Notes under the pieces: generated by a model | What the model was told of the DNA's origin: nothing | Databases searched by the model: none | The model's input: only the letters and a program-made list of their open reading frames with translations | Position numbers and translations under genes: made by a program | Shown here: positions 57,000 through 63,690 of the stretch, piece by piece | How the letters are laid out: each line of letters starts with the position of its first letter | How positions within the stretch are numbered: the first letter of the stretch is position 1 | From: Rhodobacter viridis | GTDB lineage: Bacteria > Pseudomonadota > Alphaproteobacteria > Rhodobacterales > Rhodobacteraceae | Length of the DNA: 64,000 nucleotides | NCBI RefSeq assembly: GCF_003217355.1 | Contig: NZ_QJTK01000001.1 | Span: 186,001-250,000, forward strand | Direction: 5' to 3'

Positions 57000-57029
57000 G
57001 CGAAAGCAGAAAACAAGAGGGTGGGCAGC

Positions 57030-57800
57030 ATGGACGAGTCAGGCAAACCGGTGGGATTTCGCCGCAATCCGGGGCAGAAATACAGCCTGTTTCTGGACGA
57101 TCTGCACAGCCGCATGGTCTTTGACTGGTATATGGAGATCGGCTGCCGCGCCGGGCGCAGTTTCGCGCCGGTGACGGGCAAGACGATTGCGGTGGATCCC
57201 TTCTTCAAGGCCGAGGCGAACATCATCGGCGCCAAGCCGCAGCTGTTCATCTTCCAGCAGACGAGCGACGATTTCTTTGCCTCCGGCATGCTTGAACGCA
57301 TGGGGATCAAGCTGTCGCTGTCGTTCCTTGACGGGATGCATCTCTTTGAATTCCTGCTGCGCGACTTCATGAACACCGAGGCACTTTCGGACCCGAACGG
57401 GGTGATTGCGCTGCATGACTGTGTGCCCTTCAACGAAAAGATGCTGACGCGCGATCTGAAGAACCTGCCGAAGGGACCGTGGACGGGCGATGTCTGGAAG
57501 CTGATCCCGATCTTGCGCAAATATCGCCCGGATCTGGAGCTGACGGTGCTGAACTGCCGTCCGACCGGGCTGGTGTTCGTCTCGAACCTTGATCCGACGA
57601 ATACCGTGCTGCGCGACAATTACGAGGCGATTCTGGCCGAATGGACCTCGGTCGATCTGGTGCCCTATGGCGTCGGGCGGTTCTACGATGCCTTTGAAAG
57701 CGTCGATGCCGAGGCTTTTGCCGCTGCAGATTACCCGATCTTTTCGAAGATCCGGCAGGCGCCGACGACGATTCGCAAGCCGACCAAGGTCACGAAGTAA
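57030..57800 (+). CDS. Class I methyltransferase-like protein
   Basis: This is a 256-residue protein with a SAM-binding plan of the Methyltransf_24 type: MEIGCRAGRSF (motif I), TIAVDPFF (motif II), LSFLDGMHLFEFLLRDF and GVIALHDCVPFN. This version, with DGxHxYExxxRDF and HDCxP, is common in polysaccharide clusters. The start MDESGKPVGF has a GAGGGTGGG site; a GTG three codons upstream is possible. It is co-transcribed with the GT61-like gene 14 bases downstream. Confidence 0.82.
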   Translation: MDESGKPVGFRRNPGQKYSLFLDDLHSRMVFDWYMEIGCRAGRSFAPVTGKTIAVDPFFKAEANIIGAKPQLFIFQQTSDDFFASGMLERMGIKLSLSFLDGMHLFEFLLRDFMNTEALSDPNGVIALHDCVPFNEKMLTRDLKNLPKGPWTGDVWKLIPILRKYRPDLELTVLNCRPTGLVFVSNLDPTNTVLRDNYEAILAEWTSVDLVPYGVGRFYDAFESVDAEAFAAADYPIFSKIRQAPTTIRKPTKVTK

Positions 57801-57814
57801 CCGCGGGGGGTCAG

Positions 57815-59125
57815 ATGGTTGCCCACGAAGACGATCCTTGCAGCGCCCCGCAGCCGCTTGGTGGCTGGTCCACGAAGATCGTGACCGTGCCGCAGGCGCT
57901 GGTCGTGCCCGCGACCGTGTCCGACATGGTGCAGCCGATGGGCATCTTCGACGCCGACGGCGCCTATGTGCATGAGGGGGTGCTTTGGCGCGGCCGTCGC
58001 CTGATGGTCGAGCCGGAGCCGCGCCCCGAGCCCTTGGCCGCGTTGCCCGGGCGCTGGATCTGGGCCGGTGTCCTGCTCAATCACTTCGGCCATTTTCTCG
58101 TTGAAAGCACGCCGCGGCTCTGGGCGCTCGATGCGCTGAAGGGGGCGGTCGATGGTCTCGTCTTCACCGTCAAGCGCGAGACGCTCGAGGTCGCGGGCGA
58201 GCTGAAGCTGCAGCCGTTCCAGCGGCTTTTCTTCGATCTTCTGGGGATCGACGTGCCGATCCGCATTCTTGCACAGCCGACGCGGGTCGAATGTCTGGAA
58301 GTGCCCGGACAGGGCTTCGGCCTTGGCGCGATTGCAGCCGGGACCGAGCCGTTCCGCGCCTTCTTCCAGTCCCGCTTCGCGCGCGATATCGCGCCGCAAG
58401 GGGCGGAAAAGCTTTACATTTCCCGGTCCGCGCTGGGCGCCAGTCGGGGTGGCGTGCTGGGCGAGGACCGGATCGAGGCGGCGCTGGCTGCCGCTGGCTA
58501 CGAGATTTTCCACCCGCAGAAACACAGCCTTGAAGCGCAGATCGCCCATTACAAGGCGGCGCGGCAGGTGGTGGCGCTCGACGGCTCGGCGCTGCATATG
58601 GTGGCGATGGTGGGGCGCCGCGATCAGCAGGTGGCGATGATCCGCCGCCGGGTCAGTGACGTGTCCGACAGCATCGTCACCCATCTGACCGCCTTCACCG
58701 GGCAGGCGCCGCTGGTGATCGACGTGATCGAACAGGATTGGGTGCGCTCGGACCGCAAGCGCGCGGATCGGCATTCGGTCGGTCAGCTTGATCTGCCCGC
58801 GCTGGGGCGCGCGCTGGTCGCGGGCGGCTTCCTGCCCGAAGGCACCGAGATCCCGGCGATGTCCGAGGCCGACATTCAGGCGGGCGTGCATCTGTTCGAA
58901 GATGCGCTGAGCGGCAAGCTCACGTTCGAGCCGCTGGCGCGCGGCGCCCGGCGCGAGTTGCCCGAGGCCGACAACGGTGCGCGGCGGCGCAAGGACAAGC
59001 CCGGCACGAAGCCGGGCAAGGAAGGCAAGCTCAAGGGCGAGGAACGCCGGGCGGCGCGGATGGCGCGGCAGGCGGACAAGACCGAGCGACGCGAAAAACG
59101 CGCGGCGGCCCGGCCCGAGGGCTGA
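57815..59125 (+). CDS. Glycosyltransferase family 61-like protein with basic tail
   Basis: This is a 436-residue protein resembling the GT61/DUF563 group: NHFGHFLVESTPRLWAL and KLYISRSALGASRGGVLGED, then HSLEAQIAHYKAARQVVALDGSALHM are typical parts. GT61 enzymes transfer pentoses or GlcNAc to proteins or polysaccharides. The last about 55 residues are a lysine/arginine/alanine/glutamate-rich, low-complexity tail (RRRKDKPGTKPGKEGK, EERRAARMARQ). Similar tails end the GSCFA protein and the 343-residue protein nearby. Confidence 0.83.
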   Translation: MVAHEDDPCSAPQPLGGWSTKIVTVPQALVVPATVSDMVQPMGIFDADGAYVHEGVLWRGRRLMVEPEPRPEPLAALPGRWIWAGVLLNHFGHFLVESTPRLWALDALKGAVDGLVFTVKRETLEVAGELKLQPFQRLFFDLLGIDVPIRILAQPTRVECLEVPGQGFGLGAIAAGTEPFRAFFQSRFARDIAPQGAEKLYISRSALGASRGGVLGEDRIEAALAAAGYEIFHPQKHSLEAQIAHYKAARQVVALDGSALHMVAMVGRRDQQVAMIRRRVSDVSDSIVTHLTAFTGQAPLVIDVIEQDWVRSDRKRADRHSVGQLDLPALGRALVAGGFLPEGTEIPAMSEADIQAGVHLFEDALSGKLTFEPLARGARRELPEADNGARRRKDKPGTKPGKEGKLKGEERRAARMARQADKTERREKRAAARPEG

Positions 59126-59149
59126 GGCCGCCTGAGCCTGTTTCCGCCT

Positions 59150-60220
59150 TTATTTTCGGCGCTTTGCCCGGCGTTCTTCGCGCGCGGCCTTGCGTTCCTG
59201 ACGCTCGGCCCGGCGCGCGGCGCGGTCTTCGCTCGGGGTCTCCTCGACGGCCTCGATCGGCGCGGCCGCGTCCCCCAGATGCGCGCGGGTAAAGACCGCC
59301 ATCACCTGCGCCACCGACGCCTCGCGCACCGAGCGCAGGTTCGGCTCGAACCACGCCCCCCCGGCCTTCACCGAGGTGACCAGTTCATAGGAGGGGAAAT
59401 AATCCACCTCCGGGTGATCGGCCTGCATCTCGCCCGCGACGGCGCGCAGCACGGATTTCGAGAGCGTGGTGGCCGTCAGCACATGCGCCTCCGAAGCGGT
59501 CGCGGTCAGCGGCACCGGCGAGACGGTGAGCAGCACCCGCAGCGCCGGGTTCAGCGCCTTGAGCCGGGCGAGCGCGGCTTCCAGATCGGCCTTCACCTCG
59601 GCCGTGCGGAAATTCGCGAAAGCATGGATCTCGGGGTCGTAGCTGCCCGCGATCGTGCCGGGCGCGGTCGCATAGACCTGACCCGAGGGCTTGTGCAGCC
59701 AGGCCTCGGTCAGGCCCAGCGTGAAGATGAAGACATCGGCTTGGCCGAAGACCTCGCGCACCTTTTCAAGGTGCTTTGCCCGCTCCGCCTTGACCGCTTC
59801 GGCGCTGGCAAAGCCGCTCGGTTCGATATTGGGGCGCAGCGCGTCGTAGAAGCGGCCGTCCTTTTCCCAGATCGCATCGAAATCGCGGGGGCTGCCCCAG
59901 GCCTCCTCGATCAGCTGGCGCAGCTGGCGGGTGGTGTAGAGGTTGCCGTACCGCGCCGAATACATGTCATAGCCGTGGTTCGGCCCGTCTTCGGGGGCGA
60001 TGTGGCCCGGGCGCGGCTCGGCGTCAAGCACGTTGAAGCCGTTTCTGCGCAAGGCCCGGCCGACATGCTGGGCAAAGCAGGACCCCGCGGTGACGATGCG
60101 GTCGGTCTTTGTCAGCTCCCAGCGCGGGCGATAGAGGTCGGGCGGCGGATAGGCGGCCTCGGCCATGCCGGTGCGCCAGAAGGCGCGGGCGTCGATGCCT
60201 TGATAGGGCGAGCGGGTCAT
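59150..60220 (-). CDS. GSCFA domain protein
   Basis: This is a 356-residue protein of the GSCFA family, named after the motif seen here as TAGSCFAQHVGRALRR. The family belongs to the SGNH/GDSL hydrolase fold; the motif serine would be the nucleophile. Other family stretches are MYSARYGNLYTTRQL, FIFTLGLTEAW and LTVSPVPLTATA. A role in adding or removing acyl groups on a glycan is inference. The C-terminal about 30 residues are a basic, repetitive tail (RRAERQERKAAREERR). It overlaps the upstream SGNH-like gene by four bases. Confidence 0.88.
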   Translation of the reverse strand: MTRSPYQGIDARAFWRTGMAEAAYPPPDLYRPRWELTKTDRIVTAGSCFAQHVGRALRRNGFNVLDAEPRPGHIAPEDGPNHGYDMYSARYGNLYTTRQLRQLIEEAWGSPRDFDAIWEKDGRFYDALRPNIEPSGFASAEAVKAERAKHLEKVREVFGQADVFIFTLGLTEAWLHKPSGQVYATAPGTIAGSYDPEIHAFANFRTAEVKADLEAALARLKALNPALRVLLTVSPVPLTATASEAHVLTATTLSKSVLRAVAGEMQADHPEVDYFPSYELVTSVKAGGAWFEPNLRSVREASVAQVMAVFTRAHLGDAAAPIEAVEETPSEDRAARRAERQERKAAREERRAKRRK

Positions 60221-61029
60221 GCGGGCACTCCTTCAATATCGCAGGCCGCGGTCAGGGCGGGATGGATCGCCGCCCAGCAGGCCAGTCCGAAATCGGCATT
60301 CATATGCGAGGCGTCGGTGCCGCCGCCCTCGCCGGAAATCAGCCGCGAGGCCTCCTTGTTATAGGCGCCGCGGGTGGTCACGCCATCGGCGACGGTCTCG
60401 GGCGGTTGCGGCACGAAGATCGCATGGGGCGCAAGCGCCGCACCGACCGCGCGCAGGAACATCTCGCCGATCGCCGGACCGTCGCCCGCGCGGATCGCCT
60501 TGTCCCAGCCGTAATCCGAGACCCCCTCGGGCGCCTGTCGCGCCCAGTCGGCCCAATGCGGCTCGGCCAGCGCCAGAACCGGTTTGTCGGTGGCGCCGCG
60601 CAACCGCTCCGCATGCTCGAAAAGCTGCGTGCTGCGATAGCGTTCGGTCAGGAACGCCTCGGCGAAGGCCGGATGCACCAGTGTCTTGCCCGCCGTGCCC
60701 GAAAGCCCGACCCAGGCGTGGCTCTTGTAAAAGCGCAAGATGCGCTTCGAGGACATGTTGAGCCCGATCAGCAGGAAGGCGTCGAAGCGCGCCAGATCGA
60801 TCCGGTCATAGCCGCCCGACAACTGGCGGAAATGGCTGGTGATCTTTTGCCGCGTCGGCACGAGCGCGCCGTCTTGCAGCGCGACATGGCGCATCCCGTC
60901 CGAGGGCGCGCCGAAGAAGGTCGGCTCGATGGCGTCCCAGCCCGGAACCGCCTCGGCCATCAGCCGGTCCCAGCCCAGTTTGATCGCCCCGATATGGGAA
61001 TTGCCGATCACGCACAGCCGCAGGGTCAT
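60217..61029 (-). CDS. SGNH-hydrolase-like protein
   Basis: This is a 270-residue soluble protein. Near the N-terminus, LCVIGNSHIGAIK resembles the GDSL/GNSH serine block. Near the C-terminus, GGTDASHMNADFG offers a DxxH pair, the usual acid-base of SGNH enzymes. Both together suggest an esterase or acyltransferase active site, but intermediate blocks are not clear. The ATG overlaps the stop of the upstream gene by four bases and its stop overlaps the GSCFA gene, forming a three-gene operon. Confidence 0.72.
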   Translation of the reverse strand: MTLRLCVIGNSHIGAIKLGWDRLMAEAVPGWDAIEPTFFGAPSDGMRHVALQDGALVPTRQKITSHFRQLSGGYDRIDLARFDAFLLIGLNMSSKRILRFYKSHAWVGLSGTAGKTLVHPAFAEAFLTERYRSTQLFEHAERLRGATDKPVLALAEPHWADWARQAPEGVSDYGWDKAIRAGDGPAIGEMFLRAVGAALAPHAIFVPQPPETVADGVTTRGAYNKEASRLISGEGGGTDASHMNADFGLACWAAIHPALTAACDIEGVPA

Positions 61030-62057
61030 TTCGAAAACGCCTCCAGCAGCTCGTCTTCGCACATCACTTTCGCGGTTCTTCCCTTGTCCCTTGCTTCGGC
61101 TTTCGCCTTGCGTTTGGCGCGGCGCTCGGGGTCTTTCTGCCGGGCCTTGCGGTCTGTCTCGGGCGGGGGGGCGAGCGGTGCCGCCGTGCCCTCGACCAGA
61201 TCGAGCAGATCCGCCCCGCCACAGAGCCGCGTGATCAGCGTGGCAAGGCGGTCGAAATCACGGCCCTCGGCGGGCAGAGTGGCAAGCCGCGCCACCAGCG
61301 CATCCAGCACCGGGTCCTGTGCGACACGGTCTTCGGCGCGCGCCCAGGCGGCGGCCCGGGACGCGACAAGGGCATGGGCGGCCCGCGTCTCGCTCGAGGC
61401 CTCCGCCGGGGCGGGCAGCACGATCAGCCGCAGCGCCGCCTTCGGGGCCAGTGTCGTCAGCGCCGCTTGCAGCCGGGCAAAGCCCGCGTCAAGCGCGTCG
61501 GCTGTTCCCGGCGCCTCGGGCCAGCCGGGGGGGACGACGCCCGGCGCCGGGCGGGGCGCGAGGCGCCCGCTCTGCGGATCGCACAGAAGCACGGGGGCGG
61601 AAAGCGGCAGGATCAGCGTTTCAGTCTCGCCCAGAAGCTTCGCCAGCGCATCAAGATGCGCCGCGCGATAGGCGGTGGCGGCCGCCACATCGGGCAGGCC
61701 CGCCGGATCGACTTCGGGACGGGCGGCATCGATCTGCGTGCCATCGGGCTGCGGCCAGAGGAGCGGGGCAGGGCGAGCCGCGACCTCTTCAAGCAACTGC
61801 GCGATCAGCCGCACATCGCCCAGACGCCCGGCGCGGGCCGAAGCCAGCCCATAGTGAAACCGCGCCAGAAGCTCTGCCGAGGCCTGTTTCGGCCCGGGTT
61901 CGGCATCGGCGAGCGCGGCCCCGCCGCGTCGCAGCGCCTGCGCCAGCGGCAGGGCGGGATCGGCGCCCAGAAGGCTGAGCCGGATCGTGCCCGCCACCAC
62001 AGGCGCTGCCGGCGCGTCCACGGCGTCGGTGTCGGGCTCGTCATCTGCGTCGGTCAT
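61026..62057 (-). CDS. Unknown alanine-rich protein with basic tail
   Basis: This is a 343-residue alanine/leucine-rich protein without a recognised domain. One hydrophobic strand pattern (LILPLSAPVLLCDPQSGRLAP) and later (ALRLIVLPAP) hint at an alpha/beta fold. The C-terminus is a basic low-complexity tail (DRKARQKDPERRAKRKAKAEARD) ending in MCEDELLEAFSK. The start MTDADDEPD has an AGGA site. It is the first gene of the operon with the SGNH-like and GSCFA genes, and its promoter region faces the candidate small RNA. Confidence 0.7.
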   Translation of the reverse strand: MTDADDEPDTDAVDAPAAPVVAGTIRLSLLGADPALPLAQALRRGGAALADAEPGPKQASAELLARFHYGLASARAGRLGDVRLIAQLLEEVAARPAPLLWPQPDGTQIDAARPEVDPAGLPDVAAATAYRAAHLDALAKLLGETETLILPLSAPVLLCDPQSGRLAPRPAPGVVPPGWPEAPGTADALDAGFARLQAALTTLAPKAALRLIVLPAPAEASSETRAAHALVASRAAAWARAEDRVAQDPVLDALVARLATLPAEGRDFDRLATLITRLCGGADLLDLVEGTAAPLAPPPETDRKARQKDPERRAKRKAKAEARDKGRTAKVMCEDELLEAFSK

Positions 62058-62213
62058 CTGTCCTGCCTTCTTTTCGCTGCAGAGTATGCGTCGTGCCCGC
62101 AGTTTGAAAGCCAATCATGGACAATTCAGGGCAAAGCCGGGGTTCTTTGCGACGCTCTGCGGGGCGTCGCGATGCTGCGCTGCCAAAATGTCGCAGCGAT
62201 CGTTAACGGCGTA

Positions 62214-62262
62214 TTGACCTATGTCAAAGTAGTTTCGCCCCCGAAGCCGCTAGAAACGGCCC
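62214..62262 (+). promoter_or_regulatory. FNR/FixK-type site and promoter of a candidate small RNA
   Basis: A perfect palindrome TTGAC-CTAT-GTCAA at 62214-62227 matches the FNR/CRP-superfamily pattern TTGA-N6-TCAA. A -10-like TAGAAA lies at 62251-62256. Transcription from about 62262 would put the palindrome centre near -41.5, the exact class II activator position. The site is also about 155 bases upstream of the divergent 343-residue protein gene, which it could alternatively control. Confidence 0.6.
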
Positions 62263-62387
62263 ATCAGGTTCCCGATCTCCCTGAAACGGCGCAAGCCAGC
62301 GGAACCTGAACAAAGAACCCGGACGTTCTCCCTCGTCGGGTTCCAAATAACGCGCTGCGGGCCTCCCTCCCGCAGCGCTTTATTTTT
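62262..62387 (+). ncRNA. Candidate small RNA with three CUCCCU-bearing hairpins
   Basis: The predicted transcript is about 126 nt. Hairpin 1 pairs 62265-62272 with 62301-62308 (8 perfect pairs). Hairpin 2 pairs 62315-62320 and 62322-62325 with 62334-62337 and 62338-62343 (10 pairs, one bulge). Hairpin 3 is the terminator (62352-62361 with 62369-62378, 10 pairs, then TTTATTTTT). Each loop contains CUCCCU: GAUCUCCCUGAA, UUCUCCCU and CCUCCCU. This motif is complementary to Shine-Dalgarno sequences, as in the Cuckoo and AbcR-type small RNAs of alphaproteobacteria. No open frame runs through it. Confidence 0.6.
62352..62387 (+). terminator. Terminator of the candidate small RNA
   Basis: A perfect 10-base-pair stem GCGCTGCGGG with CCCGCAGCGC has loop CCTCCCT and is followed by TTTATTTTT. 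On the minus strand it is followed by GTTATTT, so it may also terminate the L,D-transpeptidase gene. Confidence 0.85.
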
Positions 62388-62410
62388 GGCCCATCGCTTT
62401 CGGGACGGGG

Positions 62411-62998
62411 TCAGAGCACCTTCACCTGCGTGCCGACAGGGCAAAGCGGATAGAGCACCTCGACCTGCGCGTTGAAGAGCCCGATGCAGCCCGACGAGCT
62501 TTTGCGGCCGATCTTGCGGGTGTCGTGGGTGCCGTGGATGATGTAGGCGGGCCAATCGAGATACATCGCCCGCGTGCCCAAGGGATTGTCCGGCCCCGGA
62601 CCCATCGGATGCAGGCTCGGATCGGCGGCCATCATCGAGGCAGTGGGCGTCCAGCTTGGATTTTCGCGCTTGCGCACGATCTCGGTATAGCCGGTGCGGG
62701 TCAGTTCCGGGCTTTTCGGCACCGAGGTCGGATAGACGCGGTAATCCGCCCCCTCGGCCGCCCAGTAATGCAGCGCCTTCGACACCGTGTCGGCGATCAG
62801 CGTCACCCGGTCGAGCCGGTCGAAATGCTCGCGCCAGTCGATCGTGCGGAAGGCCGAGACATTGGCGCGCGTCGGCGGGGCCACGATCGCGGGCTGGGCG
62901 GCCATCGGCACGTCCTGCGTGCCCGCCCGCAGAACCGACGGCGCGAACAGCGCGACGGCGCCGGAACCGATGAGCAGACGACGGGTGAGACGGGGCAT
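62411..62998 (-). CDS. L,D-transpeptidase (YkuD family)
   Basis: This is a 195-residue secreted enzyme that forms or modifies L,D cross-links in peptidoglycan or attaches proteins to it. An N-terminal twin-arginine-like or Sec signal (RRLLIGSGAVALFAPSVLRA) precedes the mature part. The YkuD active site is HGTHDTRKIGRKSSSGCIGL, with the catalytic cysteine in SGC and the histidine upstream. The ATG follows GGAGGCAAGG. An inverted repeat lies directly upstream of the ribosome site. Confidence 0.92.
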   Translation of the reverse strand: MPRLTRRLLIGSGAVALFAPSVLRAGTQDVPMAAQPAIVAPPTRANVSAFRTIDWREHFDRLDRVTLIADTVSKALHYWAAEGADYRVYPTSVPKSPELTRTGYTEIVRKRENPSWTPTASMMAADPSLHPMGPGPDNPLGTRAMYLDWPAYIIHGTHDTRKIGRKSSSGCIGLFNAQVEVLYPLCPVGTQVKVL

Positions 62999-63038: not shown

Positions 63039-63100
63039 GAAAAAGGCGGGGCGGGTTCCAGTCAATTCCTGTCACGAGCGAGTGAGAGGGGGACGAGATG

Positions 63101-63127
63101 AAAAAGGCCCCCCGGACGGGAGGCCGT
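63101..63127 (-). terminator. Terminator after infC
   Basis: On the minus strand GGCCTCCC (63125-63118) pairs with GGGGGGCC (63113-63106), with one wobble, and ends in TTTTT at 63105-63101. The plus strand also ends in T residues. Confidence 0.75.
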
Positions 63128-63150
63128 TTTTCGTGCCGAGATCGCAGCGC

Positions 63151-63690
63151 TTATTTCGGCGCGATCATCATCACCATCTGGCGGCCTTCAAGCTTCGGCA
63201 TCGATTCGACCTTGCCGGCATCGCCGACATCGCCCACGACCCGGTTCAGAAGTTCCATGCCAAGCTGCTGGTGCGCCATCTCGCGGCCGCGGAAGCGAAG
63301 GGTGACCTTCACCTTGTCGCCTTCCTCCAGGAATTTCATCACCGAGCGCATCTTGACCTCGTAGTCATGCGTATCGGTGCCCGGGCGGAACTTGATTTCC
63401 TTGATCTCGATGACCTTCTGCTTCTTGCGAGCTTCGGCCTCTTTCTTCTGCTGTTCGTATTTGAACTTGCCGAAGTCCATGATCTTGCAGACCGGCGGAA
63501 CGGCGGTCGGCGAGATTTCCACGAGGTCGAGCCCGGCCTCTTCGGCCATCTGCATCGCACGGGCGGGCGTGACCACGCCGACGTTCTCCCCATCCGCCCC
63601 GATCAGGCGGATTTCAGGCGCGCGGATGCGGTCGTTGATCCGGGGGCCGGTCTCGCGTTGCGGCGGGGCATTGTGCGGTCTGCGGGCTAT
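63151..63690 (-). CDS. infC: Translation initiation factor IF-3
   Basis: IF-3 binds the 30S subunit and checks the start codon and initiator tRNA. The full family frame is 179 codons: the N-domain with [19 protein letters not shown] and [22 protein letters not shown], then the C-domain with [17 protein letters not shown] and [12 protein letters not shown]. The N-domain can only be complete if translation begins at an ATA codon (63690-63688), eight bases after an AAAGGA site; no ATG, GTG or TTG is in frame before the conserved RINDRIR. E. coli infC uses the equally rare AUU and is autoregulated through it. Confidence 0.93.

Follow-up and report, generated by a model that had tools for sequence, protein, structure and literature searches.

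A candidate FnrL- and RegA-controlled small RNA with repeated anti-Shine-Dalgarno motifs in Rhodobacter viridis and its relatives

Within the 64,000-nucleotide stretch of the Rhodobacter viridis genome analyzed here (the window), the gap between a divergent gene on the left and a convergent L,D-transpeptidase gene on the right harbors an RNA gene that, as judged from its sequence and that of its relatives, is likely to be genuine and conserved and to have a redox promoter. In the reading we favor, to which we assign a probability of roughly 0.6, the gene encodes a stand-alone, trans-acting RNA of about 126 nt that would be activated by FnrL and RegA at low oxygen and would occlude Shine-Dalgarno sites of the AGGGAG type. 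When oxygen falls, FnrL bound to a palindrome centered at −41.5 and RegA bound to a box at about −75 would switch the gene on; the RNA would then present three separate copies of CUCCC(U), or four in six relatives from other genera (L115–L120), and these would pair with Shine-Dalgarno sequences of the AGGGAG or GGGAGA type in selected mRNAs and so keep them from being translated. An RNA acting in this way would thus be a repressing arm for FnrL and RegA. The mode of action by anti-Shine-Dalgarno pairing is plausible by analogy with known alphaproteobacterial RNAs. The first-pass annotation of this DNA had proposed an FNR-type-controlled RNA with repeated C/U-rich anti-Shine-Dalgarno loops, and strong conservation and covariation across relatives support that proposal. 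The features of the locus are as follows.

61026–62057, minus strand: left neighbor, divergent, with no Pfam match and an assumed start; adjoins GSCFA and glycosyltransferase-61 genes
62180–62194, plus strand: RegA (PrrA)-type box CTGCCAAAATGTCGC, centered at about −75; assigned from its match to a published RegA motif and its conservation
62214–62227, no strand assigned: FnrL-type palindrome TTGACCTATGTCAA, TTGAC-N4-GTCAA, centered at −41.5 from the predicted start
62251–62256, plus strand: −10-like TAGAAA, placing the predicted start at about 62262; weakly conserved across copies
62262–62387, plus strand: small RNA of about 126 nt, both ends predicted, single-copy; assigned from fold, conservation and covariation
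62264–62309, plus strand: hairpin 1, branched, with CUCCCU at 62277–62282 inside GATCTCCCTGAA; both partners altered in 8 of the 9 pairs of the outer stem
62315–62343, plus strand: hairpin 2, with apical loop UUCUCCCU (62326–62333); 8 of 10 pairs changed on both sides
62352–62387, plus strand: intrinsic terminator, with stem 62352–62378, loop CCUCCCU (62362–62368) and U tract TTTATTTTT at 62379–62387
62411–62998, minus strand: L,D-transpeptidase (YkuD) gene, ldt, convergent to the RNA; assigned by Pfam
63151–63576, minus strand: infC, translation initiation factor IF-3, the most widely shared neighbor found

The palindrome, the TAGAAA element, the three CTCCCT copies (62277–62282, 62328–62333 and 62363–62368) and the terminator stem with its U tract all lie where the first-pass annotation had placed them. 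Its gap of about 350 bases is also recovered, provided that the left gene starts at the ATG at 62057, as we assume; the list of open reading frames gives a TTG at 62114. The statement that every loop carries CUCCCU is borne out for the three hairpins but not for three loops, the first copy being located on the 5′ side of the branched hairpin 1 and not in an apical loop. The fold of positions 62250–62400 has a predicted energy of −62.8 kcal/mol (z = −5.5), which none of 200 shuffled sequences equaled, and a U-rich tail, the one feature seen that bears on Hfq dependence, is present at the 3′ end of the RNA. In the five copies examined, CUCCCU is predicted to be mostly open (0.77–1.0), and the hairpin 2 motif is predicted to be fully unpaired in all five.

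To follow the RNA across the genus, a DNA search was run on 18 genomes, the window genome counted, and 15 of them carry a copy, the nearest being 91–92% identical to that of the window. The search gave no match in G005, G011 and G013, the last of which is 81% complete and likewise yielded no infC. The 15 genus copies differ in their stems but agree throughout in GATCTCCCTGAA, in the second CTCCCT and in GGGCCTCCCTCCCGC. Together with the locus L020 and eight loci from other genera (L113–L120), these form an aligned set of 24 copies in 23 distinct rows. L016, a 70-base contig-end fragment that is a second match in G014, is left out of the alignments; other rows dropped are the repeats L111, L112, L193, L200 and L207 (of L001, L009, L008, L125 and L132, respectively), and the apparent repeats L017, L018 and L019 (of L002, L005 and L007). 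CUCCCU is found in all three hairpins of 23 of the 24 copies, the exception being L115, which has CUCCCA in hairpin 2. In L115–L120 the small inner hairpin of hairpin 1 has a further CUCCC, and the number of loops therefore varies. Base pairing is retained in 94.5% of alignment cells, and in 18 of 32 pairs both partners have changed; for the two large stems the figure is 16 of 19. None of 500 shuffles reached as high, and slid controls pair in only 36–48% of cells, although the alignment was fitted to the covariance model and thus leans towards structure.

Covariance models extended the search. Model R1 was applied to 80 named loci, retained from 176, that surround relatives of the L,D-transpeptidase; it gave strong matches only in three Rhodobacter loci and in a locus under the title Defluviimonas nitratireducens, whose source may be among the other genera with strong matches. 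The first-pass annotation had suggested a covariance search of the three hairpins in other Rhodobacterales. R1 matched 22 of 394 genomes of the family, the other 372 having no model match at E 0.001, and a second model, R2, matched 28 of 390 genomes of the order. R1 scores above 60 bits were obtained in ten family genomes, two within the genus and eight in other genera, and R2 scores above 80 bits in nine genomes besides that of the window, all listed under the same genus or family. Loss of the loops and the palindrome beside conserved flanking genes, named at the outset as an observation that would count against the RNA, was not seen in any of the 24 aligned copies; at the same time, three genomes that have both FnrL and infC (G005, G011 and G067) show no credible copy within about 7–12 kb on each side of infC. 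G067 is taken as R. sphaeroides 2.4.1; it contains the published ccoN FnrL site with UspA- and FNR-like frames beside it, a site also found in one other, G035, of seven genomes.

The promoter region looks like a RegA plus FnrL promoter. With a matrix built from 29 published R. capsulatus FnrL sites, the two orientations of the palindrome rank 1 and 2 of 127,974 window positions, and the exact sequence TTGACCTANGTCAA occurs once in the genome, at the palindrome. TTGA-N6-TCAA is kept in 24 of 24 copies: 20 have TTGAC/GTCAA, two have TTGAT/ATCAA with both arms converted, and two are mixed. Across the genus, the interval between the palindrome and the conserved (C/T)ATC at the start varies by no more than two bases, and the center at −41.5 would be an activating position for an FNR-type site, a placement that depends on a start predicted from sequence. 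A sigma-70 scan called no promoter at the locus, as a −35 hexamer is absent at proper spacing. A missing −35 hexamer is usual for activator-dependent promoters. The FNR-type site had already been proposed for this DNA and it stands; what had been missed is a second operator upstream, the RegA-type box, whose TGTCGCA is likewise found in 24 of 24 copies, with a spacer between TGTCGC and the palindrome of 19 bp in 22 copies and 18 bp in two. In R. capsulatus, the motif reported for RegA ChIP-seq peak 17 is the very 15-mer of the window, CTGCCAAAATGTCGC; the peak is listed there for another gene, a chemotaxis transducer (PMC5359404, Table 2), and peak 27 of the same report has CAAAATGTCGC in common with the window box. 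With a matrix made from the other 31 RegA sites, peaks 17 and 27 being left out, the box ranks 39 of 127,972 window positions, a good but not outstanding score; fixed spacing and conservation are the stronger argument for it. For R. capsulatus, a sister species, the FnrL consensus is given as (T/C/A)TGA-N6-TCAA (PMC4634722). The window genome encodes a close FnrL homologue, a frame that shares 81% identity across 166 residues with the presumed FnrL of R. sphaeroides. Binding of FnrL upstream of small RNAs has a precedent, since two of the 13 R. sphaeroides FnrL ChIP-seq sites reported outside the upstream regions of annotated genes lie at the sRNAs RSs0019 and RSs2461 (PMC4263372).

Beyond the close relatives, a wider and more diverged class of such RNAs probably exists. 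The combination of palindrome, 115–145 nt and CTCCCTCCC was found in 17 of 394 family genomes, once in each, and a reversed control in none of the 394; the 17 comprise the ten genomes with strong model matches and seven others. One of these seven, L146 (G138), is without a terminator hairpin and probably a chance match. Low-scoring model matches (27–40 bits, 24 distinct ones scored, with L129 left out for its irregular length) were also checked for TTGA-N6-TCAA in a stretch reaching from 170 bases ahead of each match to 30 bases into it; 12 have it and 12 do not. All loci examined there, 111 kb together, contain 25 palindromes of this form, 22 of them within the stretch. Some of the low scorers that lack a palindrome are other things, e.g., L121, which by reading stands behind a DUF1127-like frame. 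The diverged loci L138, L139, L145, L197 and L198 show an FNR palindrome upstream of hairpins with C-rich loops, and more than one CTCCCTCCC is present in L138 and L145. These five may represent a wider class of FNR-coupled RNAs. That the Rhodobacteraceae hold a whole lineage of oxygen-switched anti-Shine-Dalgarno RNAs, in which the body of the RNA is replaced over time but the RegA box, the FNR palindrome and the CUCCCU loops persist, is a tentative extension that we regard as somewhat unlikely.

The left gene adjoins the RNA in 4 of 15 genus loci (L001–L004). The ldt gene is near it in 14 of these 15 and in L020; the fifteenth genus locus, L004, is cut off by a contig edge. None of the eight loci from other genera, L113–L120, has ldt in its 1.5-kb flanks. 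The link to glycan and cell-wall genes drawn by the first-pass annotation therefore finds no support. In 11 of the 16 further genomes that show the pattern, infC and the RNA converge and share a contig, no more than 10 kb apart; infC is placed on a different contig in four and 345 kb away in G247, which has a low-scoring copy. The true start of infC in the window is upstream of the GTG of the listed frame, because the Pfam match starts at profile position 23. Just past the infC stop, at 63098–63160 on the minus strand, there is a terminator-like hairpin with a sub-threshold Rfam match to Phe_leader. On the far side of the locus, the adjoining stretch 57021–62057 holds genes of the glycosyltransferase-61, GSCFA and, with a score under the Pfam cut-off, methyltransferase-like types; the frames 60217–61062 and 61026–62057 have no Pfam match, the latter being about 32% identical to the GSCFA protein.

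Three other readings were weighed. Both operators could serve the divergent left gene or operon, the hairpins being the shared terminator region of convergent genes; the operator sites do lie upstream of that gene and a terminator stem is called on both strands. We consider this very unlikely, as the left gene is present in few loci, yet both operators stand beside the RNA in 24 of 24 copies, and three motif-keeping hairpins with covarying stems exceed the needs of a terminator. The active transcript could instead be the minus strand, i.e., the 3′ UTR of ldt or infC, with AGGGAG loops that could hold a GGA-binding protein or mimic Shine-Dalgarno sequences. Fold energies hardly separate the two strands (that of the plus strand is the better one in only 5 of 24 copies, and a strand test counts 19 G–U versus 15 A–C cells), and in G029, G130, G241 and G270 the RNA lies convergent to infC, 73–276 bp past the end of its match. 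Nevertheless, the RegA box, palindrome, −10 element and U tract follow one another in plus-strand order with almost unchanging spacing, and infC is on another contig in the strong carriers G221 and G268; we consider a minus-strand transcript very unlikely. In the third reading, which we regard as unlikely, the palindrome is bound by another protein of the CRP/FNR family, e.g., an NnrR- or CrpK-like one, and not by FnrL. TTGAC-N4-GTCAA is commoner among the copies than TTGAT-N4-ATCAA, the window genome encodes a second, weak homologue, and CrpK and FnrL of R. sphaeroides are reported to have binding determinants in common (PMC4263372). On the other hand, the FnrL sites tabulated for R. capsulatus (PMC4634722, Table 1) include three of the form TTGAC-N4-GTCAA, and two of our copies use the canonical FNR palindrome.

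A further possibility is that the RNA is a diverged member of the Cuckoo/CcsR/ar14 family, alphaproteobacterial RNAs (ar14/NfeR1, RF02344; CcsR1–4, RF02791) that likewise consist of repeated units exposing C/U-rich anti-Shine-Dalgarno motifs. The best Rfam match of the present RNA is indeed ar14, at 29 bits and E 0.011 against a gathering threshold of 58.8, and the design of three hairpins, each exposing an anti-Shine-Dalgarno motif, is alike. The kinship suggested by the first-pass annotation is, however, one of style. The family motif CCUCCUCCC, reported as identical among members and located in unpaired regions (PMC10746234), is absent from all 24 copies, which carry CUCCCU instead. In a scan of 19 loci that carry the RNA, and of L110, every Rfam family stayed below its threshold, and in eight loci CcsR1 was unmatched at E 0.5, with ar14 far below gathering in two and not listed in six. 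CcsR RNAs are co-transcribed with ccaF1, a DUF1127 gene (CIN1 locus), from an RpoHI/RpoHII-driven promoter, whereas the present RNA is single-copy with its own RegA/FNR-type promoter, and none of the seven neighbor proteins scanned matches DUF1127. The window genome also has a separate cluster of eight CCTCCTCCC motifs, which adds to the case against membership, and we judge it unlikely. This cluster, L110 (G000:C11:31271–31601, minus strand of the contig), is Cuckoo/CcsR-like, is preceded by a frame identified by reading as DUF1127-like (CcaF1-like), and scores 54.9 bits for ar14 and 50.5 for CcsR1 (range 43–55), which is below threshold but far above the present RNA. RF02344 is widespread: at E 0.001 it has a match in 245 of the 295 genomes of the family searched, and in 36 the score exceeds the cut-off; three matches were counted in the window genome, and the two that were placed both fall in the L110 cluster, on another contig.

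NfeR1 (ar14) is described as a trans-acting RNA whose three hairpins with redundant anti-Shine-Dalgarno motifs silence mRNAs, and its promoter is activated by LsrB and repressed by NtrC (PMC10746234), in contrast to the RegA/FNR-type operators found here. PcrZ of R. sphaeroides, a 136-nt low-oxygen sRNA reported to depend on PrrA (= RegA) and FnrL (PMC8139620, PMC6238624), resembles the present RNA in its proposed control. As an orthologue PcrZ was rejected: in the genome taken as R. sphaeroides, the best model score was 8.9 bits in the 10 kb around the published PcrZ position, assumed to be transferable, and 13.8 bits around infC. FnrS of E. coli, described as an FNR-activated trans-acting sRNA (PMC8139620), is comparable to the regulation proposed here; the present RNA differs by its multi-loop anti-Shine-Dalgarno design and second redox operator, and FnrS is not among its Rfam matches. 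AbcR (ar15), described as an LsrB-linked alphaproteobacterial regulator of many mRNAs, has a different promoter. It is likewise not among the Rfam matches. The literature and Rfam searches turned up no description of the present RNA.

The 16S tail reads CCUCCU. Since CUCCCU differs from it, the RNA should favor sites of the GGGAG(A) type and not all mRNAs. The adjoining ldt gene, whose ribosome site AGGAGG the first-pass annotation had pointed out, fits poorly: AGGAGG is a poor match to the CUCCCU loops, and the best pairing reaches −13.1 kcal/mol against a 5% background of −14.7. Within infC, the window genome contains a perfect 11-base complement to loop 2. Among 13 loci, this complement is whole in L001, has one G–U pair in L002 and is broken in the other 11 by other codon spellings, with energies of −26.5 and −28.4 kcal/mol in L001 and L002 and −12.0 to −22.9 in the rest; we judge it probably a chance match. 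Neither gene is a convincing target.

A search for TCAGGGAGA-N3-9-ATG returned 33 rows in eight genus genomes and 42 in nine further genomes, and none in the reversed control of either set; a small number of rows are duplicates, and in G221 one row corresponds to the RNA gene read in antisense. Carriers have 1–8 rows in the eight genus genomes and 4–8 in six other genera, and the genome taken as R. sphaeroides, in which a copy was not found, has six. Because such Shine-Dalgarno matches are equally frequent there, no target stands out, and the excess over the reversed control mostly reflects Shine-Dalgarno usage. Several frames, all named by reading, recur downstream of these sites: an O-acetylhomoserine sulfhydrylase-like frame in G000, G002, G010 and G033, malic enzyme-like and omega-aminotransferase-like frames in G000, G002 and G241, and, within the genus, additionally a UbiH-like monooxygenase (G002, G010, G015) and a DapA-like frame (G000, G010, G017). 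When the frames of the nine further genomes were compared with the genus set (E 1e-8), relatives turned up for 6 of 30 in carriers and for 0 of 10 in G005, G011 and G067, the genomes lacking a credible copy. The recurring frames are candidates only, because orthologues keep their ribosome sites by descent and the numbers are small. For six candidates of the window genome, predicted duplexes range from −17.5 to −21.3 kcal/mol against a 1% background of −17.0, the candidates having been picked for complementarity.

If the more tentative reading, that of a whole lineage of oxygen-switched RNAs, is true, these would be the missing FnrS analogue of the Rhodobacteraceae, through which anoxia dampens the translation of mRNAs with AGGGAG-type ribosome sites, and their regulon would be defined by Shine-Dalgarno spelling. 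The present RNA would join two things known apart in these bacteria, namely the oxygen network of RegA and FnrL and the multi-loop anti-Shine-Dalgarno RNAs, whose known control is by stress or nitrogen. In the R. capsulatus FnrL ChIP-seq study, 34 of 82 peaks are reported without a responding neighbor gene (PMC4634722), and unannotated RNA genes of this kind could account for some of these orphan peaks. Such genes would give FnrL and RegA a direct repressing arm.
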